The notes under the pieces were generated by a model. It saw nothing but the letters and a program-made list of their open reading frames with translations. It did not search any database and was not told the origin of the DNA. This document shows, piece by piece, positions 9,744-52,893 of a stretch of 64,000 nucleotides of DNA. A program made the position numbers and the translations under genes. Each line of letters starts with the position of its first letter. The stretch's first letter is position 1. The stretch is from Dielma fastidiosa (GTDB lineage Bacteria; Bacillota_I; Bacilli_A; Erysipelotrichales; Erysipelotrichaceae): NCBI RefSeq assembly GCF_000313565.1, contig NZ_HE578924.1, forward strand, positions 285,881 through 349,880. The letters are read 5' to 3'.

Positions 9744-11523
9744 GGCTCTCACCTCCTTCACTTTGTATTTCATAAATTCGTTTATATAAGCCTTCCTCAT
9801 GAATTAAAGTCTCATGAGTGCCGCTTTGTATCAGCTTGCCATGATCAAGCACCAATATTAAATCCGCGCTGCGCGCTGTATTGATCCGATGCGTAATCAT
9901 TAACGTAGTAACCGGATAATCCAGCTGATTTAAGGCATCCTGGATCATCGCATCAGTTTTAGAATCGAGAGCGCTTAGTGAATCATCAAAGATAACGATC
10001 GGTGATTTAAGCAGCAGTGAGCGTGCGATAGCCAGACGCTGTTTCTGACCGCCGGATAAGGTTACACCCTTTTCGCCGACTTCAGTATCATAGCCCTTTT
10101 CAAATTCCTCAATTACATTATGGATACTGGCCGTCTTAGCCGCTTTGATGATTTCATCGCGCTCACTCTTACTGGCAGCCAGATGAATATTTTCATAAAT
10201 CGTTTTACTGTATAGGAATGGCTCCTGAAGCACGATTTGTACCTTCTTGCGCAGCCAAGCTTTGCTGATGGTGCGCAGTTCATGGCCGTCTATGCGGATT
10301 GAACCGCCCTTATAATCATAGATGCCATTCAACAGATGAATCAATGAGCTTTTACCGCTGCCCGTAGGCCCCATGATTGCCACGCGGGTATTCGCTTCAA
10401 TATGGAAGCTGACATCATTCAGCGTGTGTTCTTCACTGTCTTCATAATTGAAGGATACATGATCAAACACGATATCACCGATGATTTCAGGCTTAATACC
10501 CGCTTCCAGATCTTCTGCCTCTTCATCAAGAATTTCCTTGATACGGGTAACAGATACGCTGACCTTCCCCATATCGGCAAGGATTCTGCCCAGCTGACGG
10601 ATTGGCCAGATAATCATGCTGATGTAAGTCAGAAAGACAAAGAAGGTACCTACACTCAGCTGCTGCGCCACTGCAAACTGAATGCCGAAGATAATCATGA
10701 TCAGAATCTGTATCATGCCGATTAAATCGGAGATGTTCCAGAAAATACCTAAGGCGTTAACTAAGCGGAACAGCTTGACACGATAATCTTCATTTTTCTC
10801 TTCAAATTTATCAATTTCAACCTTTTCCTGATGGAATGCTTTCACTACCCGCATCGCATTGAGATTTTCCTGCAAAACCGCCATCATTTTTGATTCCGCA
10901 ATATCGCAGTCCAAGAAGATTTTTTTAGACTTGGTATAGAAAATCAAGGATGCAATCAGAATCAGCGGCAGCAGTACGACTGAAATTGCCGCGAGCTTGG
11001 CATGCTTAGAGAATAAGATTGCCGCCGCAAAACAGACGATCAAGATCGAATAAAGCATTTCTGATATTTGTGAGGCGAGAAAACGCCGAATCTGATCGAT
11101 ATCTGAGGTACAGCGCTGCAGCAAATCACCGCTGTCCTTTTGTTTGTGATAGGCAAACGGCAGCTTCTGCATATGATCATAAACCGCGTTGCGGATATTT
11201 TCCGCAAAGGTTTCAGATACCAAACCGCAGTTAATGGTTCGCCGATGAACGCCAAAAGCAATTAATATATAAACAGCCAGCATCAGCAATGAACCAATCC
11301 ATAAATTATTACGCAAATGCGCATCACCGCCCAGCCGCTGCAGAATTGCGGTAATCATTTGATTATCAGCCGGAATCCCCTGAATAACATTATCCACCAT
11401 GATTGATAAGATCAATGGTGATATCAGCATTGCCAGCGCGTAGATTGCCACATCAAAGAAAATAGCGATAATTCGCTTATCATCTGGTTTCGCATAGTCC
11501 AATATAAACTTTAACTTTTTCAT
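9733..11523 (-). CDS. ABC exporter half-transporter, degenerate-site subunit
   Basis: 596 residues: six transmembrane helices (about 15-300) and an ATPase domain with Walker A GPTGSGKSS, a canonical signature LSGGQKQRLAIAR, and Walker B IVIFDDSLSALD, where Asp replaces the catalytic Glu. That pattern marks the non-hydrolysing half of a heterodimeric exporter (TM287/288 or BmrCD type). AAGGAGGG lies 8 bases before the ATG. It is the first full gene after a leader peptide and a terminator hairpin, so expression is probably controlled by attenuation. Substrates cannot be told from sequence. Confidence 0.92.
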   Translation of the reverse strand: MKKLKFILDYAKPDDKRIIAIFFDVAIYALAMLISPLILSIMVDNVIQGIPADNQMITAILQRLGGDAHLRNNLWIGSLLMLAVYILIAFGVHRRTINCGLVSETFAENIRNAVYDHMQKLPFAYHKQKDSGDLLQRCTSDIDQIRRFLASQISEMLYSILIVCFAAAILFSKHAKLAAISVVLLPLILIASLIFYTKSKKIFLDCDIAESKMMAVLQENLNAMRVVKAFHQEKVEIDKFEEKNEDYRVKLFRLVNALGIFWNISDLIGMIQILIMIIFGIQFAVAQQLSVGTFFVFLTYISMIIWPIRQLGRILADMGKVSVSVTRIKEILDEEAEDLEAGIKPEIIGDIVFDHVSFNYEDSEEHTLNDVSFHIEANTRVAIMGPTGSGKSSLIHLLNGIYDYKGGSIRIDGHELRTISKAWLRKKVQIVLQEPFLYSKTIYENIHLAASKSERDEIIKAAKTASIHNVIEEFEKGYDTEVGEKGVTLSGGQKQRLAIARSLLLKSPIVIFDDSLSALDSKTDAMIQDALNQLDYPVTTLMITHRINTARSADLILVLDHGKLIQSGTHETLIHEEGLYKRIYEIQSEGGESHGE

Positions 11524-39975: not shown

Positions 39976-40005
39976 ATGATAAAATAATAGCATTTTATTT
40001 ATCAT
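39976..40005. promoter_or_regulatory. Inverted repeat in the lysR-chrA intergenic region
   Basis: ATGATAAA (39976-39983) mirrors TTTATCAT (39998-40005) with 14 bases between. LysR regulators often bind such interrupted dyads between divergent genes. Confidence 0.55.
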
Positions 40006-40040
40006 AAGTCGAATGTTATAGTAGCAATGAGGTGTTGTTT

Positions 40041-40598
40041 ATGAATAAAGTTAAAACTTATTGTTGGTTGTTTGGCATTAATCTATTTATCAGTGCGTTC
40101 ACTTTTGGCGGCGGTTATGTAGTGATTCCAATGATTAAGAAATATTATGTAGAAGAAAAGCAGTTATTTGATGAAGAGGAATTAATGGATATTGCTGCTA
40201 TTGCACAGTCTTCACCTGGGGCGATCGCGATTAATATGAGCGCGTTAGCTGGATATCGGGTAGCTGGCTGGCAGGGGTTGTTGATTAGCTGCTTTGCGGC
40301 CATTTTACCGCCGCTAGTAATTTTGTCTGTTGTTTCAGCGGTATATTCGTTGATTCGGGATAATCGCATCATATCGGCTGTTTTAAAAGGAATGGAAGCT
40401 GGTGTAGCTGCTTTGATCGTCGATTTAATTATTGATATGTATGCTTTAATCATCAAAGAAAAGCAGCTGTTTTATACTTGCATGGTGCCAGCTGCGTTTA
40501 TTCTTAATTATATTTTTCATGTAAATGTTGCCATAATCATAATTGGCACGCTGTTTGTGTGTATTTTTAAATACCAATTCTTTAAAGTGAGGGCTTGA
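40041..40598 (+). CDS. chrA: Chromate transporter, first half-protein
   Basis: 185 residues, a single CHR domain with about six helices. FTFGGGYVVIPMIKKYYV and the loop DIAAIAQSSPGAIAINMSA are family signatures. Short-chain CHR proteins work as pairs and export chromate or related anions; the true substrate is unknown. GAGGTG precedes ATG 40041. The next gene starts 2 bases after it, so they form a unit. Confidence 0.92.
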   Translation: MNKVKTYCWLFGINLFISAFTFGGGYVVIPMIKKYYVEEKQLFDEEELMDIAAIAQSSPGAIAINMSALAGYRVAGWQGLLISCFAAILPPLVILSVVSAVYSLIRDNRIISAVLKGMEAGVAALIVDLIIDMYALIIKEKQLFYTCMVPAAFILNYIFHVNVAIIIIGTLFVCIFKYQFFKVRA

Positions 40599-40600
40599 TA

Positions 40601-41155
40601 ATGAATCTTTTATTTCAATTATTTTTTGATTTTTTTAAGATAGGTCTATTCAGTATCGGCGGTGGTTATGCGATCATTCCAGCAATAAGAGATCAGGTTG
40701 TCATTTTAAGACAGTGGATCACTTATCAAGAATTTACAGATATCATCACTATATCACAGATGACACCAGGGCCTTTAGCCGTTAATACCTCTACCTTTGT
40801 TGGTATGCGAGTCGGCGGACTAGCTGGAGCATTGCTGGCTACGGTTGGATGTATTTTTATGGGTGTTGTGATTACGGTGGGGCTCTATAAGCTATTCAGT
40901 AAATATTCTTACTCAGCGTATTTTAAAGAGATGCTGAAGGGGCTGAAATCGGCCTCGCTGGGTCTAATTGCATCGGCGGCAGCGATTATTCTCGCATTGG
41001 CTTTTTTTGGTTCTGAGAATATAAAATTATCGGCACTTAATATGAGCTCAGTGATTATCTGCATGACTGCACTTATTCTAGTGAGAAAGACGAAGCTGAA
41101 TCCTATTGTGATTATGATTCTGTGTGGGATGATGAATCTTATTTCACTGATTTGA
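40601..41155 (+). CDS. chrA: Chromate transporter, second half-protein
   Basis: 184 residues with the matching CHR signatures, GLFSIGGGYAIIPAIRD and TISQMTPGPLAVNTSTFVG. The two half proteins are expected to have opposite membrane topology and act together. GAGG lies upstream of ATG 40601. It converges on the Nudix gene with only 8 bases between stops. Confidence 0.92.
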   Translation: MNLLFQLFFDFFKIGLFSIGGGYAIIPAIRDQVVILRQWITYQEFTDIITISQMTPGPLAVNTSTFVGMRVGGLAGALLATVGCIFMGVVITVGLYKLFSKYSYSAYFKEMLKGLKSASLGLIASAAAIILALAFFGSENIKLSALNMSSVIICMTALILVRKTKLNPIVIMILCGMMNLISLI

Positions 41156-41163
41156 ATAATATG

Positions 41164-41547
41164 TTAACTATTCATTAATTTTTCTATAAGTCCCTGATCG
41201 GCTGGTAACCAATCTACAGTATCTAACTCATACTTCATTAGCCATTTTGAGGCTTCGTGTTCTTTTAAAACAAGATCACCTTTTAGTATTTTACAAAAAA
41301 AGCAATGCATTGTTAAATGAAAGTTAGGATAGTCAAACTCTACTATATCAACTAATTGCCCAACTGATATTTCAGTATCTAATTCTTCTTTTATTTCTCT
41401 TTTTAATGCTTCTTGTGGAGTTTCCCCTGATTCTATTTTTCCTCCAGGAAATTCCCATCCATCTTTAAATTCACCATATCCTCTTTGCGTAGCAAATATT
41501 TTATCCTCTTCACATATAATAGCTGCAACTACTTCAACTGTTTTCAT
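41164..41547 (-). CDS. Nudix hydrolase, (deoxy)nucleoside triphosphate pyrophosphatase type
   Basis: 127 residues with a full Nudix box, GGKIESGETPQEALKREIKEEL, spread over about residues 37-58 (spaced GX5EX7REUXEEXGU pattern). It probably hydrolyses a modified or free nucleoside triphosphate, as in MutT. It is the last gene of a four-gene minus-strand cassette, 12 bases after the PLD-helicase gene, so its job is likely tied to that system. Confidence 0.92.
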   Translation of the reverse strand: MKTVEVVAAIICEEDKIFATQRGYGEFKDGWEFPGGKIESGETPQEALKREIKEELDTEISVGQLVDIVEFDYPNFHLTMHCFFCKILKGDLVLKEHEASKWLMKYELDTVDWLPADQGLIEKLMNS

Positions 41548-41559
41548 AAAATATCCTTT

Positions 41560-44454
41560 CTAATTAATTAAATAATCATAAATGTCTTCCCTTACCGCAT
41601 CTTTTAATTCTAATTCAAAATTCATTATAGGTAAAACCCTTCCTGCATCATTTTTTATAGTAGTTTCATGCCAATCAATTGGCTTAACTTCTCCTAAATA
41701 ATAAAAGTCTGTGCCTTCTCCATCACTTTTCTTTACAAATAAATAAATTTTCAATTGATTTTCTCTCCAATTGATGAGTTGTAAAGATTCTTTAGAACTA
41801 AGGGAAACTGAACTGCGTGTCATCCAACTAAACACACGATCATTAACAAATCGATCTTCATATTTTGTACTATTTGTAATATCATCTTTTTTTTCGTAAG
41901 TAACAAAAATAGGACATGTTGAATTTTTAATTTTATATCCATATAATGTAGAACTTTCATCAAGATCATAGTTTAGAATTCTACATACATCCTTACGAGA
42001 ATATTTTGCATATAAAACAAGACCATTTAAATCAGTTTTTCCTTGATATAAATCACGATATCTAATTAATCCTAATTCAATTAAATTAAACATCTGCTCT
42101 CTAAAAGCAAGATCCTTTAAATCATCAAAAAATTCATTTCCTATTTTATATATTGATTTATCTATAGATTCAATAAAATTAACTGATTCATATTTTTTCT
42201 TTTCTGATTGTGTGTTAATGAATTTTTTAAACAATAAGTTAACAGACGATGTCATTGATTTATCTGTTACATAAACATCATATTCATCAACTAATTCTTT
42301 ACTCACATTTGTCAAATCTACCCTTTGATAATTCATTAAATTAGATAATATCAAAAGTTCATGAGGTCGTTTACCATTTACTAATAAAGACGATACAAAA
42401 GTTAAGGCGCTAATTTTTCTAACAGTAAATTGATATGTATATTCATCTTCAACAGATTGCAGAAATTGATGATATGTTTGCGAATAATTTAAAAGAATTA
42501 AAGGATCTATATCACCATATAAATAAAAGTCAAGAATACTAGGAATTCTTCCTAATTTATTTTTTAAATTAATATATTTTTCAACTAATAATTTCTTTTT
42601 AGTAGACATATTGTCGATTGCTTTTAGTATTTGTTTCTTTGATATTTCATCAAAATGTATGGTCGAATTACCTGGTAATGTTCTTGACCCTTCTAGCACA
42701 TATCGTCTTATAGTATCTTTGCTATAGCTCCTATCGCCTGATAATGCCATAGGAATCATAAAATTATTTTTATAATTACCTATAAAATCTAAAATAACAA
42801 CATATTCCTTACCTTCACATTTTCTTAACCCTCTACCTAACTGTTGCACAAAAACAATGGGTGATTCAGTTGGTCTGAGCATAATGACTTGATTTATTTC
42901 TGGAATATCTACACCTTCATTGAATATATCAACTGTTAATAAATAATCTAACTTATCCTGTCCATCATCTAAAACTAAACGATCGATTGCAAGCTCTCGT
43001 TCTTCTTGACTATCTTCACCTGTAAGTGCTTTTGTTTTAAAACCTCTCAAATTGAATTGTTCTGATAATAATTTTGCTTCTTTTTTTGTACTACAAAATA
43101 TTAGACCTTTTAAACTTTCCCCACTATAACCAAAATAATTTGCTTTTTCAATTATATAATCGACTCGATGATCACACACTAAGAAATTAAAATTTCTCAA
43201 TCCAATAGAGTCATCAATTATTTCATTACCTATCTGTATATCTGTAATACCAAAATAATGAAATGGACAAAGTATATCTTCTTCAAGTGCTTTTTGAAGT
43301 CGTATTTCATAAGCAATATTATGATTAAAAAGTTTATAAATATCAAATCCATCAGGACGATCTGGACTTGCCGTCATACCAAGCCAAAATTGAGGTTTGA
43401 AATAGTCCATAATTACTTGATAACTAGCGGCTCCTGCATGGTGTACTTCATCTATCACAATGGTATCAAAAGCATTAGGTTTGAAATTAAAATAAATTTC
43501 TGGTTTGGATAAAGTTTGCATTGTAGCAAAAACAAAATCTGAATCATAACATTTTTCATTTCCTGTCAATAAGCCAAAGCTTTTTGAAGATCCGAATACT
43601 TTTTTATAACTATTAAAAGCCTGTTTGGCTATTTGTTCACGATGTACAACAAATAATGCACGTTTCAAATTTTGTTTTTTTAAAGCAAAAGCTGAAGCAT
43701 ATGTTTTACCCGTTCCGGTTGCAGATATTAATAATGCTTTATCTTCCCCCTTTTCTAGTAATTTTTGTAAATTGATAATTATCTTTTCTTGTAATGGCTT
43801 AGGCTTTAATATTTCATTTTTGTTATTGAAAGTTTTTTCTTGATTCAATAATGCAATTCTTTCTTTATAAATAACTTCATAACGACTTATATATTGATTT
43901 AACGGTTTAGATGATTCCCACATCTTATTAAATTCACTTAGTGTTTCACTAGTAATTTCACCTTTATTCGTTGATACAAATTTTGTATTCCACTCCTTAT
44001 TTTTAGTTAAAGCAGCAGCCGTAAGGTTTGAGCTTCCAATTATAATTTTATATATTTCTTTTTCCCTAAATATATAGCCTTTTGTATGAAAGCCAACTTT
44101 ATGTTCATCAACATTAAAAATTCTTAATTCTAAATTATTTAATTCACCTAACTTTTTTAAAGCTTCAGGTTCACTAAAAGAAAGATAATCAGTTGTCATT
44201 ATTCTACCTGGTACATTTCTCTTTTCCAGTTCTTTTAGCGTTTGTAACAATGGTGTAATTCCACTTTGCGTAATAAAAGCAACACTAATAAAAAATTCAT
44301 CACAGCGTTTTAACTCTTCTTCTATAGAAACAAGCATTTTTCTTCCAGCTTTATAATCGTTGAAAATAAATTGTGGTCTATATAAAAGGCTTGAGGTATG
44401 ATTATAATCTAAAAAAGCTGTCTTTAATCCATTTTCAATATCTGCTTGACACAT
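41560..44454 (-). CDS. PLD-nuclease/SF2 helicase/DUF3427 fusion protein
   Basis: 964 residues in three parts. Residues 30-190 are a phospholipase-D-like nuclease (HTKGYIF, IIIGSSNLTAAAL). Residues 220-560 form an SF2 helicase with Walker A SATGTGKTYAS, DEVHHAG in place of DEAH, GMTASPDRPDG and VQQLGRGLRKCEGK. Residues 600-960 are DUF3427. It could cut and translocate DNA or RNA. It sits between a GIY-YIG/DUF2075 gene (29 bases upstream) and a Nudix gene. Such PLD-helicases turn up in defence islands. The gene is AT-richer than its core-genome neighbours. Confidence 0.9.
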   Translation of the reverse strand: MCQADIENGLKTAFLDYNHTSSLLYRPQFIFNDYKAGRKMLVSIEEELKRCDEFFISVAFITQSGITPLLQTLKELEKRNVPGRIMTTDYLSFSEPEALKKLGELNNLELRIFNVDEHKVGFHTKGYIFREKEIYKIIIGSSNLTAAALTKNKEWNTKFVSTNKGEITSETLSEFNKMWESSKPLNQYISRYEVIYKERIALLNQEKTFNNKNEILKPKPLQEKIIINLQKLLEKGEDKALLISATGTGKTYASAFALKKQNLKRALFVVHREQIAKQAFNSYKKVFGSSKSFGLLTGNEKCYDSDFVFATMQTLSKPEIYFNFKPNAFDTIVIDEVHHAGAASYQVIMDYFKPQFWLGMTASPDRPDGFDIYKLFNHNIAYEIRLQKALEEDILCPFHYFGITDIQIGNEIIDDSIGLRNFNFLVCDHRVDYIIEKANYFGYSGESLKGLIFCSTKKEAKLLSEQFNLRGFKTKALTGEDSQEERELAIDRLVLDDGQDKLDYLLTVDIFNEGVDIPEINQVIMLRPTESPIVFVQQLGRGLRKCEGKEYVVILDFIGNYKNNFMIPMALSGDRSYSKDTIRRYVLEGSRTLPGNSTIHFDEISKKQILKAIDNMSTKKKLLVEKYINLKNKLGRIPSILDFYLYGDIDPLILLNYSQTYHQFLQSVEDEYTYQFTVRKISALTFVSSLLVNGKRPHELLILSNLMNYQRVDLTNVSKELVDEYDVYVTDKSMTSSVNLLFKKFINTQSEKKKYESVNFIESIDKSIYKIGNEFFDDLKDLAFREQMFNLIELGLIRYRDLYQGKTDLNGLVLYAKYSRKDVCRILNYDLDESSTLYGYKIKNSTCPIFVTYEKKDDITNSTKYEDRFVNDRVFSWMTRSSVSLSSKESLQLINWRENQLKIYLFVKKSDGEGTDFYYLGEVKPIDWHETTIKNDAGRVLPIMNFELELKDAVREDIYDYLIN

Positions 44455-44483
44455 AGAATCTTGCTCCTTTAAAAATCATAATT

Positions 44484-46187
44484 TTAAATATATTTCTTAA
44501 AATAACTTTTTAATTTCTCATCGCACGCATATACATAAGTGCCTTTAATTCCTCTAGTCATTAATACCTTATAGATATTAATTATATACTCATGCAATTC
44601 CTTCTCATCATGAATACCTCGGCTCCCATTCATATCATGATAATTTTCTTTTTTTATTTGAATCCTTTGCGCCTTTTCATCATAAGTAATCTCTGGGCCA
44701 AAAATCACACCAGCATAATTTAGATCATATCCCTGAACCGTATGAATACAGCCTATTTCATCAATAGCATGAGGAGAGTTAACCCAATCTTGTCCAACTG
44801 TATTCCATATTAACTTCACGTTATTAATTTCAATATCAAATAGTTTATTTGAAATAATTTCTTTATAAGATAACCCCTTTGTACGCCATTTCCATGCGTA
44901 TCCAGCTACATTTCGACACAAGCCAAACTCGTTATCCTTTTGTTTAATGGCGTTTATCATAGAATCTAGATCATCATAAAGTTGAAAATCATAATTACTA
45001 AATTTTTTTACTTGAATATTCTCTGCATCACCAAGCAATTGCTCAATGTATTCAATATACTCAACGCCACCTTCTACACGTAATTGTGAAATCAAATTAT
45101 ATTGAAATGATTCCTCTTGTTCATTGATACGTTCAAAACATTCTCTGCGTATATCCGTAGGTTTAACACTTTGCGTTTTATCATAAAACAGGATCTGATA
45201 TTTGCTGCATTTCATTAGCCAATCCAATTCTGTTCCATCATTACTTAAACCTAAGCTTTTGTTATTTTTGTCAAATTGAGCATAGCCAGACAGATTTATG
45301 CGTCGCTTAAGTCTATGCGCTTCATCAACAATAACTAAATCATAATTATCTTTCAAAACTTCACTTGGCCCAATAACCATTGAGGGTTTTAATCCATTTA
45401 TGTTTCTGAATACCATTTTTAAGGTTTTGCGTAATGATGTCATTGGTATAACTAAAGCTATTTTTAACTTTTGTTTATTTTTCAAATTCAGTAAAGCATC
45501 AATAAAACCTTCCTCATACAATTCATTATCTTCAAGATAATCTAAATAACTCTGTTTTAATTCTTTAGACATTACATCATTAATTAATTTCATTAAAAAA
45601 ATAGCTAATACAGTTTTCCCTGTGCCAGCACCACCGTTTACTATAAATGCGGCTGGTTCGTTCGTCTGAATTTTTTTGAACAAATCATTCATAATTTTAT
45701 ATACGGTGTTATATTGATCCTCTGTTAAGCTTTTATAAGGAGAGAATTTAAATAAATTCGAATTTTTAATAATTGCTAAATCATGCTTAACCAAACCTTT
45801 ACGTCTTAAATCATGCCAAATCTCATTAAACTTATCTAAATAATATTTCCTTTGATAATATTCATGATCTCTACTTTGCCCTAAATTTCCATTTTGCAAT
45901 TTATATATACCGTCTGCTGACATATAAGAAATTAATAAAGATTCTACATCTAAACAAGCAGATTTATTAAATTCTTCATCATAAATAACGCTGACTTCTT
46001 TTAACTTTACTCTTTCTTTATTTGACAAATGCTGCTTGAAACGTATAATAGCATTCCCTGTTTCGCCAATATATGCTTCTGAATTATTGTTAATAATATA
46101 GACAACCGGCCAGTTCATACAGTAAGGAACAGCTTTTATATTATCTAGTTCAGTCGCTTTAAATTTGAAGGTTTTGATGTTTCCCAT
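44484..46187 (-). CDS. GIY-YIG nuclease fused to DUF2075 NTPase/helicase
   Basis: 567 residues. The N-terminal GIY-YIG-like nuclease (about 28-95) shows VVYIINNNSEAYIGETGN, RFKQHL and a later Glu in LDVESLLISY. A DUF2075 motor (about 150-565) has Walker A NGGAGTGKTV, Walker B LVIVDEAHRLKRR, IHTVQGYDLNYAGV and LMTRGIKGTYVYACD, which mark an SF1-like core related to the Schlafen group. GGGGTAAC before the ATG overlaps the stop of the MazG-like frame, so it is coupled to it. Likely acts on nucleic acid together with the PLD-helicase. Confidence 0.9.
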   Translation of the reverse strand: MGNIKTFKFKATELDNIKAVPYCMNWPVVYIINNNSEAYIGETGNAIIRFKQHLSNKERVKLKEVSVIYDEEFNKSACLDVESLLISYMSADGIYKLQNGNLGQSRDHEYYQRKYYLDKFNEIWHDLRRKGLVKHDLAIIKNSNLFKFSPYKSLTEDQYNTVYKIMNDLFKKIQTNEPAAFIVNGGAGTGKTVLAIFLMKLINDVMSKELKQSYLDYLEDNELYEEGFIDALLNLKNKQKLKIALVIPMTSLRKTLKMVFRNINGLKPSMVIGPSEVLKDNYDLVIVDEAHRLKRRINLSGYAQFDKNNKSLGLSNDGTELDWLMKCSKYQILFYDKTQSVKPTDIRRECFERINEQEESFQYNLISQLRVEGGVEYIEYIEQLLGDAENIQVKKFSNYDFQLYDDLDSMINAIKQKDNEFGLCRNVAGYAWKWRTKGLSYKEIISNKLFDIEINNVKLIWNTVGQDWVNSPHAIDEIGCIHTVQGYDLNYAGVIFGPEITYDEKAQRIQIKKENYHDMNGSRGIHDEKELHEYIINIYKVLMTRGIKGTYVYACDEKLKSYFKKYI

Positions 46188-46196
46188 ATGTTACCC

Positions 46197-46510
46197 CTAT
46201 ATTTCTGTATATTTTTTACTACTTCCTTTACATTTATCGACAGGATATTTTTCCTCATTTTTCTTGATTTTATCTAATATAATTTCTTCGATGTCTACCT
46301 CAAGTTTATCAGCTAACAGCATACAATAAATCATAACATCAGCTAATTCTTCACAAACCGCATTTTTACTAAATGCTGAATTCCATTGAAAACATTCTAA
46401 TAATTCTCCTGCTTCTATAGCAATAGATTTGGCTAAATTTTCAGGACTATGAAATTGGTCCCAATCGCGTTCTTCATTAAATCTTATTATTCTTTTTTTA
46501 TTTTATCCAT
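46197..46510 (-). pseudogene. MazG-like nucleotide pyrophosphohydrolase, frameshifted at a slippery A7
   Basis: From ATG 46510 (preceded by GAAAGGTG) the frame reads MDKIKKE and stops. In the -1 frame it continues RIIRFNEERDWDQF, then IEAGELLECFQW and CEELADVMIYCML, the two metal-binding helices of MazG-like enzymes, to a stop at 46197. The shift point is seven A on the coding strand (46493-46499), read A AAA AAA G in the starting frame, a classic -1 slippery heptamer. Loss of one A, programmed or transcriptional slippage, or a sequencing undercall would all fit. It heads the cassette and would lower NTP levels or clean up nucleotides. Confidence 0.87.
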
Positions 46511-46617
46511 ATAATCACCTTTCTCCAATTATAATTCTTTTGTATTAATTAATCTAGTAATACTCTTATCTAATCAAACAATTATGTATGTTTTTTTATG
46601 ATATTTTAAAAAATAAA

Positions 46618-46664
46618 AAGAATTAATAACTGTTAATAACAGTGATCAATCCTTATTAATTCTT
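46618..46664 (-). terminator. Intrinsic terminator after the GGDEF gene
   Basis: An AT-rich stem, AAGAATTAATAA (46618-46629) with TTATTAATTCTT (46653-46664), with an inner CTGTTA/TAACAG hairpin and a long T tract on the minus strand. It isolates the MazG cassette from the cyclase gene. Confidence 0.85.
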
Positions 46665-46688
46665 ACATTATATAACAACTGTTTATCT

Positions 46689-48245
46689 TTATTCATCCAA
46701 CATCTTCAGACAGTAACGATTGCCGCCATTATTTTTCGCCTCATACATCGCCTCATCTGCTGTCTTAAACAAGCTTTCAAAATCACATTTCTGTGATATC
46801 ACACTGAGACCCACACTGGCACTGACCTGACATTCACCGGCAATACTCTGAATACTTTTCATAATATTCTCTGTCTTCTCATTCAGGTAGTCCATTGACA
46901 AAATATTCTTCATAAAAATACTGAATTCATCGCCGCCAATTCTACCTAAATAATCATTATCACGCAAATTCTTTTTGATAGCCTCAACAATTTGTATCAA
47001 TACCTGATCACCATAATAATGCCCCAATGTATCATTAATATTTTTAAATTTATCAATATCAACGATAAACAATGCCATATATTGATCCTGATGCATCATC
47101 TCCAGCTCTGCTTTTACATAATTAGTAAAAGCATTTTTATTAAGCACTCGAGTAAACTCTTCTAACTCCATATTTTTTCTTAATTCTTCATTGGTTTTTA
47201 GAATAATTTTCTGCTCATAGACAATCTTTTCCATATTGATATTAGTTATTAATGTAGACTTCATTTCACGCTTCCAAGCCTCATCTTCCTTTTTCTTAGA
47301 AACATAATAATTAAAGAGCACTTCCTTTAACTGTTCCTTTCGGAATTTTATACTGTACTCAACGTAATACTCCATAAGTCTTGATGTACGTTTATACTCA
47401 GGATACTGCTTCATATAAATATTCAGCTGTTCCAGCAAGACATTACTTAATTCTTCAAAACCTGCCTCCACACACAATTTGAATATTTGTACCATATCCT
47501 TATAAGTGTGCAGCTGATCCAGGTCCTTACTGCATAGGTTCAAAAACTGATATATTCTTTCAATCATCAACTGATAATCTGTAGCATAATACGCCTCATA
47601 AACTTGATATAATAGATAATCATCTTCTACGGTAAATTCAGTATATTTCTCTCTATACACTTCCAAATAAGACATCCATTGTCTATAATCATCCATTTTG
47701 TGTAAATGCAGACTGCACCCAACTAGATTAATAATATTAAAACCATCATTAATCTTCAATAAGCTGCTGTCAGTAATGCCTCTTTCCTTGAAACTTTCAA
47801 GGAAATATTCGTAAGCAATATCATAATACTGTAAATCATAAAAAAGCACGCCCAAATTATTAGTGAGTATATAAACCGAACGATTTACATTATTCATTTT
47901 CGCAATATAATATGCCTTTAATGTATATTGTACAGAATTAACCTCATCACCCAAGGTTCCATAAATCATTCCAACTAAGTTATTTAATTGTATAAGATAA
48001 AAATTAGCAGATATAATTTCTCCATAAGTAATCCCATCAAGAGCAAAATCAAGCGCCTCCTGATAATTACCTTTATTTAAATTATAATTAGCTATATAGT
48101 AACAAGCAACCGCCATGTAATAATCATCACGCTCATTTTCAGCTAAATCCTTCAGCTTTTTAGCCAGTACGAAAATAGCATCCATATTCTTAGATAGCCG
48201 TTCTATATCTATTTGTTGTTCTATATTGCGCATTTCTTCTAACAT
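46689..48245 (-). CDS. TPR-repeat diguanylate cyclase (GGDEF)
   Basis: 518 residues. TPR-like helical repeats fill about residues 25-310, then a coiled linker, then a GGDEF domain (about 350-515) with the intact active loop RIGGDEFSIF and an RDND inhibitory site five residues before it. It should make c-di-GMP, with the TPR part sensing a protein or ligand; no membrane helix is seen. Start is uncertain: ATG 48245 has no ribosome site and TATACT directly precedes it, so ATG 48233 (MRNIEQQ) may be used. Confidence 0.93.
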   Translation of the reverse strand: MLEEMRNIEQQIDIERLSKNMDAIFVLAKKLKDLAENERDDYYMAVACYYIANYNLNKGNYQEALDFALDGITYGEIISANFYLIQLNNLVGMIYGTLGDEVNSVQYTLKAYYIAKMNNVNRSVYILTNNLGVLFYDLQYYDIAYEYFLESFKERGITDSSLLKINDGFNIINLVGCSLHLHKMDDYRQWMSYLEVYREKYTEFTVEDDYLLYQVYEAYYATDYQLMIERIYQFLNLCSKDLDQLHTYKDMVQIFKLCVEAGFEELSNVLLEQLNIYMKQYPEYKRTSRLMEYYVEYSIKFRKEQLKEVLFNYYVSKKKEDEAWKREMKSTLITNINMEKIVYEQKIILKTNEELRKNMELEEFTRVLNKNAFTNYVKAELEMMHQDQYMALFIVDIDKFKNINDTLGHYYGDQVLIQIVEAIKKNLRDNDYLGRIGGDEFSIFMKNILSMDYLNEKTENIMKSIQSIAGECQVSASVGLSVISQKCDFESLFKTADEAMYEAKNNGGNRYCLKMLDE

Positions 48246-48694
48246 AGTATAATCATAGCATAATTTGTATGAATTTTGTCTGGTAAAAATTTAAGATTTA
48301 TTTTAATCTTAGGATCTTTGCAAGCTTTTTTGAATAAATAGAAAAAATACTTTTCAAGAACACATAAATTCTGAAAAGTATTTTTATTTTTAATTTCTCA
48401 AACTGTTACTTTATGAATTGCAATCTATATACAACATACATTGAAATTATATTAATTAGTGTTATGATATAAATGTCAGGGCATATAACCTGCGGATTGA
48501 AAAAATGTTTATTGTATATTCAACTAGTAAAAGAATTGCTTCATAATAAACCAAATTCAATTTTGGTTGTAATGAAAGAATTTTTTTATTAATTTAATGA
48601 AAGCTTTTATATTTAATTATTCTAATTACAGTGTTTTCTATCACAAAAAGCGTTATCCAAAAGCCTGTATCTTTCACATAAAAGGAGGGTTTTT
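48246..48694. other. Divergent intergenic region before the cas3 remnant
   Basis: About 450 AT-rich bases without a visible gene. It holds a 14-bp inverted repeat with T tracts at 48343-48385 (AAAAATACTTTTCA/TGAAAAGTATTTTT), which looks like a bidirectional terminator with no gene to end, possibly left from a deletion. It also holds a candidate cas3 promoter (48441-48468). Confidence 0.5.
48441..48468 (+). promoter_or_regulatory. Candidate promoter of the cas3 remnant
   Basis: TTGAAA (48441-48446), 16 bases, TATGAT (48463-48468), leaving a leader of about 220 bases before the gene. Confidence 0.45.
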
Positions 48695-49584
48695 ATGATT
48701 GCACATATCACGAAAACGGAAAGCAACCATATAAAAGAGCAAACTGTATTAGAACATTTAAAAGGAACTGCACATGTTGCAAGAATTTTGGGAGAACCAT
48801 TAGGAATAAGTTCTCTTACATACATTTCTGCACTTTTTCATGACTTAGGAAAATGGCGGATAGCTTTCAAACATTATATATATACTGTTCAAGACGGCAA
48901 TAAAGCAAATAAAATCAATCACAGTTCAGCCGGTGCCATCTTCATTTATCGTCGATACTATAAAAACGATGATTATCAAAAACTTACAGTCCAATTAATC
49001 GCATATGCCATATTATCTCATCATGGTTTAAATGACTGCCTCTCACCAGATGGCATTGATGTATTTAACAGCAGGATTGATAATTCAGAAAATTTAGATT
49101 TTGAAGAAGTAGTTAAAAATTTATATAATAGCAATATTTCTATGACAGAAATCGATACAGAGTTCGAAAAAGCAATTCAAGAGGTAAAAGTATTACGACA
49201 ACAATTTGAAGCAAATAAATTAAGTCCTTCTTTTTCATTAGGTCTGCTAGCACGTATGCTTTTGTCAATCTTAATTGATGCTGATCGTATTGATACAGCA
49301 ATTTTCTGTGGCAAAAGAGAAACTAAATCAACATTGCAAGATTTTACTCTTCCTTGGCACCAATTATGTAACAATCTCGAAGATTCTCTTAAGCAATTTA
49401 ATAGCATCTCAAATCTCAGAGAAAAAATTTCCTTGGAATGTAAAGCATTTGCTAAAAACCCATCAGCTATTTATCGGTTATCTGTACCAACCGGTGGAGC
49501 AAAACCCTAAGCAGTATGCGTTATGCATTAAATCATGCCAATATTTATAAGAAAAAAAACATCATTTTATCCTCTAAATTATGA
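48695..49584 (+). pseudogene. cas3: Cas3 remnant: HD domain and start of helicase only
   Basis: About 270 intact codons encode a Cas3 HD nuclease: EHLKGTAHVA, SALFHDLGKW (HD), KINHSSAGA, YAILSHHGLND and LIDADRID. It then reaches the helicase entry YRLSVPTGGAKP, where the normal GGGKT(L) loop is lost. A base is missing and Gly became Ala; the frame stops, while the next frame reads TLSSMRYALNHANIYKKKNII to a stop at 49584. The remaining two thirds of Cas3 are gone. AAAGGAGGG precedes the ATG. The CRISPR array begins 62 bases later, so the rest of the cas operon has been deleted. Confidence 0.88.
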
Positions 49585-49645
49585 TGAACTCTATAAAATA
49601 TCCGAAAAATTAGGCTTTTTTTATCATATTATGTATATTTTTGCT

Positions 49646-49937
49646 GTCGAGAGTCGTATGGCTCTCGTGGATTGAAATCATAAAATACTCAATCGGAACA
49701 TTAAAATAATCAGGTCGAGAGTCGTTGGATTGAAATAAAGTATCCATAATATAATTTTCTCATCAAAATTGTCGAGAGTCGTATGGCTCTCGTGGATTGA
49801 AATAATTTCTTTTAAGCTATCGTACAAATAATTCAGCGTCGAGAGTCGTATGGCTCTCGTGGATTGAAATTATTGTACCCTCATTATACTAAATTTTGAA
49901 ATTTGTCGAGAGTCATATGGCTCTTGTGGATTGAAAC
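49646..49937 (+). CRISPR. Short type I-C-like CRISPR array, five repeats
   Basis: Full 33-base repeats lie at 49646-49678, 49771-49803, 49838-49870 and 49905-49937. They begin GTCGAGAGTCGTATGG and end CTCTCGTGGATTGAAAT, with CGAGAG/CTCTCG as the stem and the ATTGAAAY end typical of I-C and I-B repeats. The second repeat (49714-49736) lacks the 10 bases ATGGCTCTCG. The four spacers are 34-35 bases: 49679-49713, 49737-49770, 49804-49837 and 49871-49904. The last repeat has three changes, marking the distal end, so the leader side faces the cas3 remnant. Confidence 0.95.
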
Positions 49938-50312
49938 ATTCTTCTGGTTTACCATGAACTAAAACTAGAGCTTTTGCGATCCATGAAAATTGAAGGAACA
50001 AAGTATCATTAAAGAGTACAAAAGCTTAATTTTGCAATCTACAAGCAAGTATGGCTATAAAGACGGAAAACTTCACATCTACTAACGAATAAAAGAGCAA
50101 AAACATTAACATTATCAGAAAATCCTAAATATTGTTAAGTAAGAAAATATCAAATGGTTTTTATTTTCCCAACCGAGCATAAACTGAATGAAGAGTTAAT
50201 TATTATATAAATTCATATGATCAATAAATATCACAGTTAAACACCATTCACTCTCTTAATTAAGAGCGAACGCTTTTTCATTTAGTAACTTCCTTCTTCT
50301 ACAGCCACAAAA
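49938..50312. other. Intergenic region after the CRISPR array
   Basis: About 375 AT-rich bases with no convincing gene. The plus strand has broken coding-like fragments, for example around 50050-50085, that may be remains of lost accessory genes; I cannot assign them. Confidence 0.4.
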
Positions 50313-50354
50313 AAAGCCCGCAAAATTGCAAAACATGCGATTATAACGGGCTTT
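50313..50354 (-). terminator. Intrinsic terminator after lysS
   Basis: AAAGCCCG (50313-50320) pairs with CGGGCTTT (50347-50354); on the minus strand seven T follow. Confidence 0.9.
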
Positions 50355-50382
50355 CTTCATCCTTTAATGATTTATAAACTCC

Positions 50383-51894
<1,512 letters not shown>

Positions 51895-52893
51895 CTACCT
51901 ATCTAACCATTTCCACTCATCATTTATGAGCGACTGTTTATAATTCTCTAATATTATAACAAATTCTTCGTAAGTAGTCATTTGTGAAATGCAATCTTTT
52001 ACACGATGACTGTATTTTAAGCCCTTCATATACCAAGAAGCATGGCCGCGCATCTCTTTCATGCCCACATTTTCACCTTTTAACGCAATTAATGACTGCG
52101 CATGCTGTCTTGCTAATTCAAACTTTTCATCAATATCAGAATCACCTAGCAGTTCTCCTGTCTGAAGATAATGAGCCGTCTGCCGGATCAACCATGGATC
52201 ACCAAGTATACCTCTGCCGATCATTACCGCATCCACACCTGTTTCATTCAACATCTGTTTCGCAAGCTGCGGTGAAGTCACATCACCATTTCCCATCACG
52301 GGTATTGATACCGCATCCTTAACCGCTTTAATGATATGCCAATCCGCTTTGCCTTCATACATCTGTTTGCGGGTACGCCCATGAACCGCTAAAGCACTGG
52401 CACCGGCATCCTGCATCATCAGCGCGAATTCAACAGCATTCACTGAATCCTTATCCCAGCCCGCGCGCATTTTTACCGTAACAGGTTTTTGCACATGCTT
52501 AACGATCTCGCGCACAATTTCAGCGGCATGTTCAGGATCTTTCATCAATGCGCTGCCCGCATCACTTTTCACAATTTTATTAACCGGACAGCCCATATTA
52601 ATATCTAAAATATCACAATCCGTCTGCGTATCAATAAATACCGCCGCCTGCACCATACTTTCAATATCATGGCCAAACAGCTGCATCGTTAAAGGATGTT
52701 CATCCTCATTCACCTGTGTCATATCGATTGTCTTCGTATTTGAATAGCAGATTGCTTTATCAGATACCATTTCAGTATAAATCAAACCAGCGCCAAACTT
52801 CTTGCAGATACTGCGGAATGCCGGATTACTGATGCCTGCCATAGGTGCAATAACAATTTGATTATCAATGGATATGTTTCTGATCTTCCACAT
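51895..52893 (-). CDS. dusB: tRNA-dihydrouridine synthase DusB-type
   Basis: 332 residues, a flavin TIM barrel: VIAPMAGISNPAFR, the catalytic-Cys loop INMGCPVNKIVK, VKMRAGWD and VHGRTRKQMYEG. It reduces uridines in tRNA D-loops using FMN. Its start overlaps the end of hslO by 29 bases. Confidence 0.96.
   Translation of the reverse strand: MWKIRNISIDNQIVIAPMAGISNPAFRSICKKFGAGLIYTEMVSDKAICYSNTKTIDMTQVNEDEHPLTMQLFGHDIESMVQAAVFIDTQTDCDILDINMGCPVNKIVKSDAGSALMKDPEHAAEIVREIVKHVQKPVTVKMRAGWDKDSVNAVEFALMMQDAGASALAVHGRTRKQMYEGKADWHIIKAVKDAVSIPVMGNGDVTSPQLAKQMLNETGVDAVMIGRGILGDPWLIRQTAHYLQTGELLGDSDIDEKFELARQHAQSLIALKGENVGMKEMRGHASWYMKGLKYSHRVKDCISQMTTYEEFVIILENYKQSLINDEWKWLDR

Follow-up and report, generated by a model that had tools for sequence, protein, structure and literature searches.

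When a CRISPR array stands directly behind a broken cas3 gene, is it the dead record of a lost system, or can it still be reached by one encoded elsewhere in the genome? The question is raised by a locus at positions 48,695 to 49,937 of a 64,000-nucleotide stretch of Dielma fastidiosa DNA (hereafter the window), which lies in contig C2 of a 3.6-Mb draft assembly (95 contigs, 98.5% complete). We find that the apparent fossil is the collapsed member of an array family for which an interference module is still present. On the evidence below it is likely that the window holds the remains of the genome's canonical type I-C locus, lost by a deletion from cas3 to the leader, and that a module in contig C3 is the probable remaining user of the arrays. 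No account of this genome's arrays was found in the literature, which does not prove that none exists.

The 5' part of a canonical I-C cas3 gene occupies 48695..49510 (+ strand, 271 aa), as judged from its open reading frame, its family matches and its comparison with the Cas3 of relatives. It amounts to the 5' third of the gene, with the HD domain whole: the open reading frame scores 95.1 bits against cas3_HD (NCBIfam TIGR01596, cut-off 43.45), matches the Cas3c models of PADLOC, is 29-38% identical to the intact I-C Cas3 of relatives and aligns with intact Cas3 at the HD motifs EH, HD, NHSSAG, SHH and ADR. The original prediction, made from the letters of the window, that Cas3 is intact through this domain is thereby borne out. 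A ribosome site, AAAAGGAGGG, stands immediately 5' of the ATG at 48695, and a Shine-Dalgarno-like site, AAGGAGGG, is read directly at 48682..48689 (+). Close relatives of the window Cas3 and of the variant Cas8c described below were sought among genome contigs, and none was confirmed.

The frame of the fragment stops right after VPTGGAK, at the Walker A loop. When the intact Cas3 of a relative (G006) is compared with the window DNA, one match covers residues 22-288 in the fragment's own frame, and a second (tblastn E 2e-6) continues in another frame for 21 residues (KTLSSMRYALNHANIYKKKNI) at 49501..49563 (+); beyond about 49563 this comparison finds no Cas3 similarity. Because the homology resumes out of frame, the break at Walker A is a one-base slip in the loop, and cas3 carries two lesions, this slip and a deletion further 3'. 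The earlier claim that cas3 is cut at the Walker A loop is thus right about where the gene breaks and wrong about how, the deletion junction lying further on; nor does the array begin 62 bases after the last Cas3 codon, since the last codon recognisable by BLAST ends some 82 bases before repeat 1.

The array itself (49646-49937, + strand) consists of five repeats and four spacers, so that the four retained spacers of the prediction are all there. Repeats 1, 3 and 4 (49646..49678, 49771..49803 and 49838..49870) are identical 33-mers which fold as well as the repeats of the other arrays of this genome. Repeat 2 (49714..49736; repeat scan and folding) has lost 10 bases, leaving 23 nt, and with them its hairpin (-1.9 versus -12.0 kcal/mol), while repeat 5 (49905..49937) carries three changes. 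The repeat scan places the spacers, of 35, 34, 34 and 34 nt, at 49679..49713, 49737..49770, 49804..49837 and 49871..49904, and the locus has the equal-length repeats and near-constant, unique spacers of a CRISPR array, save for the one short repeat. Changes are usual in the leader-distal repeat; since the changed repeat 5 stands opposite to cas3, the cas3 side is the leader side. At up to three mismatches the window repeat has 29 matches in its own genome, with 0 for a reversed control, and across the 315 genomes of the order examined it is confined to its own, the 314 others having no match; among 97 relatives examined the one match was again the genome itself. The 29 matches against 0, together with their absence from 314 other genomes, indicate that the repeat family is not a product of chance. 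Rfam at its gathering threshold reports nothing in the window or in three further loci. A combined promoter and terminator scan was uninformative: promoter-like sites numbered 18, where 11.7 (sd 3.4) were expected, no terminator appeared and, among the sites listed, no plus-strand promoter-like site lay just 5' of repeat 1.

What lies between the two remnants bears on how the locus collapsed. The 17 nt before repeat 1 (49629..49645, +) agree with the leader of array C1 at 16 of 17 positions, the next best place within 2.6 kb of the window reaching 13, and we read them as a remnant of an I-C leader; the match is short, and weaker against the three other leaders (14, 12 and 12 of 17 in C3a, C3b and C3c). 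A palindromic element, GTGCGAA...TTCGCAC, stands 126-170 nt 5' of repeat 1 in four of the genome's five arrays and is absent only at the window array. In six relatives (G006, G011, G042, G244, G245, G246) the order is cas3-cas5-cas8c-cas7-cas4-cas1-cas2-leader-array, and the canonical I-C loci of these genomes have the palindrome 2-16 nt past the stop codon of cas2, in altered form in G006. With this order and the 17-nt match, the window has the beginning of cas3 joined to the end of a leader; as only about the last 17 nt of that leader are kept, a deletion from cas3 to leader is the best reading, and the original prediction of such an internal deletion finds support. The deletion would run from about 20 codons past Walker A of cas3, through cas2, into the leader, with its putative junction in an AT-rich stretch at 49564..49628 (no strand assigned) that matches neither Cas3 nor leader, and the surviving 5' part of cas3 also bears the frame slip. 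In G006 the coordinates put about 7.1 kb between Walker A and repeat 1, which suggests a lost segment of about 7 kb. That it was lost in a single event is our inference.

The genomes examined, which included no other of the same genus, yielded no undeleted allele, and the flanking genes do not show the window and the operon of a relative to share one site. No flank synteny was found between the window or the C1 and C3 arrays and the CRISPR loci of relatives, save for a few single-gene matches. The helicase gene at 44484-46187 of the window (GIY-YIG/Schlafen group 3) has a 52% identical homologue in G244 (L083:9000-10715), directly before a stand-alone CRISPR leader whose palindrome starts at 10704, within the last codons of that homologue; weaker matches concern the window's restriction-helicase gene in G011, a MarR-type gene in G042 and the GGDEF gene in G245. 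The window's PLD-helicase gene of type IV restriction-like character (PADLOC mREase_IV, 735.5 bits) lies, like the GIY-YIG helicase gene, within 41560-46187. G+C is 30-31% at 40001-48000 and 35% at 48001-52000, and 39-43% over most of the window; the AT-rich stretch adjoining the CRISPR remnant is a defence island.

Could the two remnants never have been one locus? A dispersed leader-array might have come to rest beside an unrelated cas3 remnant, and stand-alone leader-arrays are indeed common in the clade, with three in this genome and seven in three genomes of the sister genus g35. The orientation, order and spacing at the window are nevertheless those expected of a single locus collapsed internally, and a simple neighbour should have kept the leader palindrome, which is gone; we regard this account as unlikely. 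A still smaller chance attaches to an artefact, in which assembly or sequencing errors over repeated arrays produced the slip in frame, the shortened repeat or the junction. Such errors are conceivable in a 95-contig draft with five arrays of one repeat family and internal duplications in other arrays (in C1, for example, the first two spacers occur again at the end), but the disputed join lies outside the repeats, and a wrong join between arrays would show, because each array has a repeat type of its own, distinct from those of the others. Least credible of all is that the HD fragment works as a stand-alone Cas3'' nuclease or bound regulator: its HD motifs are intact and its ribosome site is good, yet it is terminated by a lesion instead of by a stop of its own at the edge of a domain, and the Cas3 of the C3 module has HD motifs of its own. 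The cas3-to-leader deletion remains our preferred account of the junction, and the next matter is what the rest of the genome offers the array.

A laxer scan of the fetched loci gives five arrays: that of the window (contig C2), C1 (9 repeats), C3a (11), C3b (7, the last one degenerate) and C3c (8), with 35 spacers in all, 32 of them distinct. Three of the arrays with leader stand alone, and C3b lies directly behind an interference operon. Their repeats are of the I-C hairpin type ending in GATTGAAA followed by T or C, and each array has its own repeat type, uniform but for scattered changes that fall mostly at the far end; between arrays the types differ in the stem-loop. The C3b repeat differs from that of the window at four positions, all in the stem-loop, and within the genome the stem differences are G-U or A-U exchanges. 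When 13 repeat types of 33 nt were aligned, leaving out repeats of 32, 34 and 35 nt (G006, G244 L083, G246 L086 and the main arrays of G244 and G246), all 104 of 104 stem cells were paired; the covariation score was 0.870, whereas shuffles gave 0.259 and sliding gave 0.255 at most. Changes on both sides were seen in 6 of 8 pairs, a count that 88 of 500 shuffles also attained, as against 0 to 12 of 500 for the other measures. Among details of the individual arrays, the recurrence of the first two spacers of C1 (L045:12402-12971) at its far end is a partial duplication, and the likeness of C1 and C3a (L045, L046) extends about 95 nt further upstream of the leader, at 84.7% over 275 nt, and takes in a promoter-like stretch of TATAAT type. 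The leaders of C3b and C3c (L047:18374, L048:3939) point towards each other across about 4.5 kb and show 95% identity over 179 nt; the two arrays have no spacer in common despite these near-identical leaders.

The operon before C3b, to all appearances intact, consists of four genes on one strand, cas5-cas8c-cas7-cas3 (L047:12548-18356; C3:88548-94356). Its Cas5 matches PADLOC Cas5c (E 1.8e-20), its Cas7 PF05107 (E 1.8e-54) and its Cas3 a Cas3c model (E 2.4e-96), with the helicase motifs GTGKT, DEYH, SSAT and QLLGRICR intact; the 719-residue Cas8c is recognised by PADLOC model PDLC01562 (E 2.5e-193) and has no NCBIfam or Pfam match at the thresholds used. The module Cas3 shares only 23% identity with the window fragment, which places them in separate I-C lineages. 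The module has no cas4, cas1 or cas2 at its side; what comes next is the C3b leader, 17 nt beyond the end of cas3. Family searches of the genome covered Cas1, Cas7, Cas8c (TIGR01863) and Cas3 (PF18019). Cas7 gave one match, in the C3 module. The search for Cas1 found none of type I-C, the sole Cas1 adjoining Cas9 and Cas2 of a type II system (TIGR03639, 285.6 bits, cut-off 120); this type II locus (L049:8273-14010) encodes a Cas9 of 1196 aa, Cas1, Cas2 and a 302-aa protein named by no library. TIGR01863 had no match and PF18019 matched the window fragment only, negatives of limited weight, since both models also miss the C3 proteins. As the draft has 95 contigs, absent cas genes could lie in its gaps.

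At the window itself, only the 5' part of cas3 represents the complete cas3-5-8c-7-4-1-2 operon. The original prediction that the other cas genes are gone accordingly holds for the locus, where none of them is left, and fails for the genome, which has Cas5, Cas8c, Cas7 and Cas3 of an I-C variant at C3:88548-94356. It had been staked on there being no I-C cas genes elsewhere with the same repeat; what we find is partly that very thing, variant Cas5, Cas8c and Cas7 with nearly the same repeat, but no I-C Cas1.

These observations suggest a mechanism in which the collapsed locus would have been one of a set, of which four other arrays, with the same repeat family and full I-C leaders, remain. Loss of the canonical operon would then have removed the only I-C adaptation genes, so that all five arrays should be frozen, and the C3 interference module would be the likely user of the arrays in trans, that of the window included. 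A module with a matching repeat is indeed present in the same genome, the C3b array lying beside a cas operon, and we infer such use in trans. With the second interference set and the four related arrays persisting, the leftover may be frozen memory and not a dead fossil. Of the five, the window array is nonetheless in the poorest position, since its leader and one repeat hairpin are gone. The Tyr and Lys-His columns of all six canonical Cas5 proteins are not kept in either of the two variant Cas5 proteins (aligned columns). A putative catalytic triad of Cas5d, Tyr46, Lys116 and His117, is given in the portion of PMC3652601 drawn on here, and by our own mapping these columns would correspond to it; lacking them, the variant Cas5 may not cut these repeats as Cas5 normally does. 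Both this Cas5 and the loss of the leader speak against the window array being used in trans.

The serious contender is a pure fossil, a dead remnant with an array that goes untranscribed and unused, and we put its chances somewhat below even. It would account for a leader almost entirely absent, a second repeat without hairpin, the want of any listed plus-strand promoter-like site just 5' of repeat 1 and a variant Cas5 without the usual catalytic residues at the aligned columns. It sits less well with repeats 1, 3 and 4, still identical and well folded, and with the presence in the same genome of an interference module whose array matches in repeat. The claim that only a fossil is left is not sustained for the genome, where that module and three stand-alone leader-arrays persist.

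The contents of the array give some information about what it once recorded. In IMG/VR, exact patterns of 22 or 23 bases were sought for the four window spacers and one spacer from each other array, and one of these eight, window spacer 4, was placed in a mobile element (one of four for the window): 33 of its 34 bases are found in the provirus contig IMGVR_UViG_2585427810_000001, where the gene of a tyrosine integrase (PF00589, E 1.5e-21) follows 20 nt downstream. The three bases before the match are TTT, near to the canonical PAM but distinct from it, since the I-C PAM is TTC. The provirus piece has no near match among phages, and a comparison of the whole region with phages gave no match inside the array among the best 20 of 65 records. 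In a wider comparison 31 of the 32 distinct spacers were joined end to end as one query. Its matches in phages (2 records) and plasmids (3 records) were rejected, as all five cross artificial spacer joins; against 309 genomes it matched in 149 at E up to 0.1, the best match outside arrays (E 4.5e-5, G284) being discarded because it also spans a join and the others looking like AT-rich chance. The proposed check of the spacers against phage, plasmid and chromosomal sequences has thus succeeded for spacer 4 and its provirus, and given no convincing phage or plasmid match.

Compared with known systems, the window resembles type I-C CRISPR-Cas (cas3-cas5c-cas8c-cas7c-cas4-cas1-cas2) in that its cas3 fits Cas3c models and its repeat form, spacer length, position and order are as in the I-C loci of relatives, and differs in lacking six of the seven cas genes and in its broken cas3. 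In the portion of PMC12814883 drawn on here, 25.0% of arrays share a genome with an array of identical consensus repeat. The genome, with its several arrays of one family, is similar to the orphan and distant arrays served in trans that are described there (PMC12814883); unlike those, as far as that portion describes them, its own repeats are related and not identical, uniform per array, and their stem changes are compensated across the clade. Adaptation-less Flavobacterium VI-B and II-C systems that borrow Cas1-Cas2 (PMC8092290, as represented by the part cited) likewise combine an interference module without adaptation genes with another system alongside; in the present case it is the I-C adaptation genes that are missing, and only type II Cas1-Cas2 was found. 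An apparently isolated CRISPR fossil thereby becomes a natural test of adaptation lost and interference kept, for which the sister genus provides an intact control. Five arrays of one leader family, one module and no I-C Cas1 lead to the predictions that no new spacers are acquired and that the crRNAs of distant arrays are found in one complex. The private, compensated repeat stems of co-resident arrays bear, in addition, on the stringency with which Cas5 and Cas1-Cas2 recognise repeat sequence.

The wider clade puts these losses in context. A scan of 309 genomes of the order finds the leader pattern in 7, namely the present one (4 copies), G244 (5), G245 (2), G246 (3), and G011, G042 and G062 (1 each), and its reversed control matches in none of the rows listed. 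G244, G245 and G246 belong to the sister genus g35, whose fourth genome examined, G034, lacks the pattern. In the pieces fetched, each of the three has one canonical I-C operon and one to four extra leader-arrays, the seven remaining leaders heading arrays without cas genes of their own; three of these seven lie within about 7 kb of the operon, one of them separated by about 1 kb from the cas3 gene of that operon. In G062 there is a leader with 13 repeats, and no cas match within the 20 kb read. Complete I-C operons, which the original prediction proposed to seek in relatives, are thus present in six of them; the window repeat itself (up to three mismatches) is absent from the other genomes of the order that were examined.

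The interference-only module is found in 2 of the 309 genomes, the present one and G245. The module of G245 shares the gene content cas5-cas8c-cas7-cas3 (Cas7 75% and Cas5 67.5% identical) and is unlike ours in having decayed, its cas8c being split by a frame slip and its Cas3 lacking helicase motifs, and in having no array within the 19 kb read; the canonical Cas3 of G245 is intact. The two genomes show opposite losses, one genome against one. A tentative and rather doubtful generalisation is that in this clade two I-C interference modules of different lineage share dispersed leader-arrays, for all of which the canonical operon adapts, and that modules have been lost in opposite directions, leaving the present genome on a frozen five-locus memory and G245 with the canonical operon. 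Repeat types vary between the arrays of one genome, and some are common to G244 and G246; in one array of G244 (L080, after 7607) the repeat type shifts along the length, with hybrid repeats between, as after recombination of two arrays.
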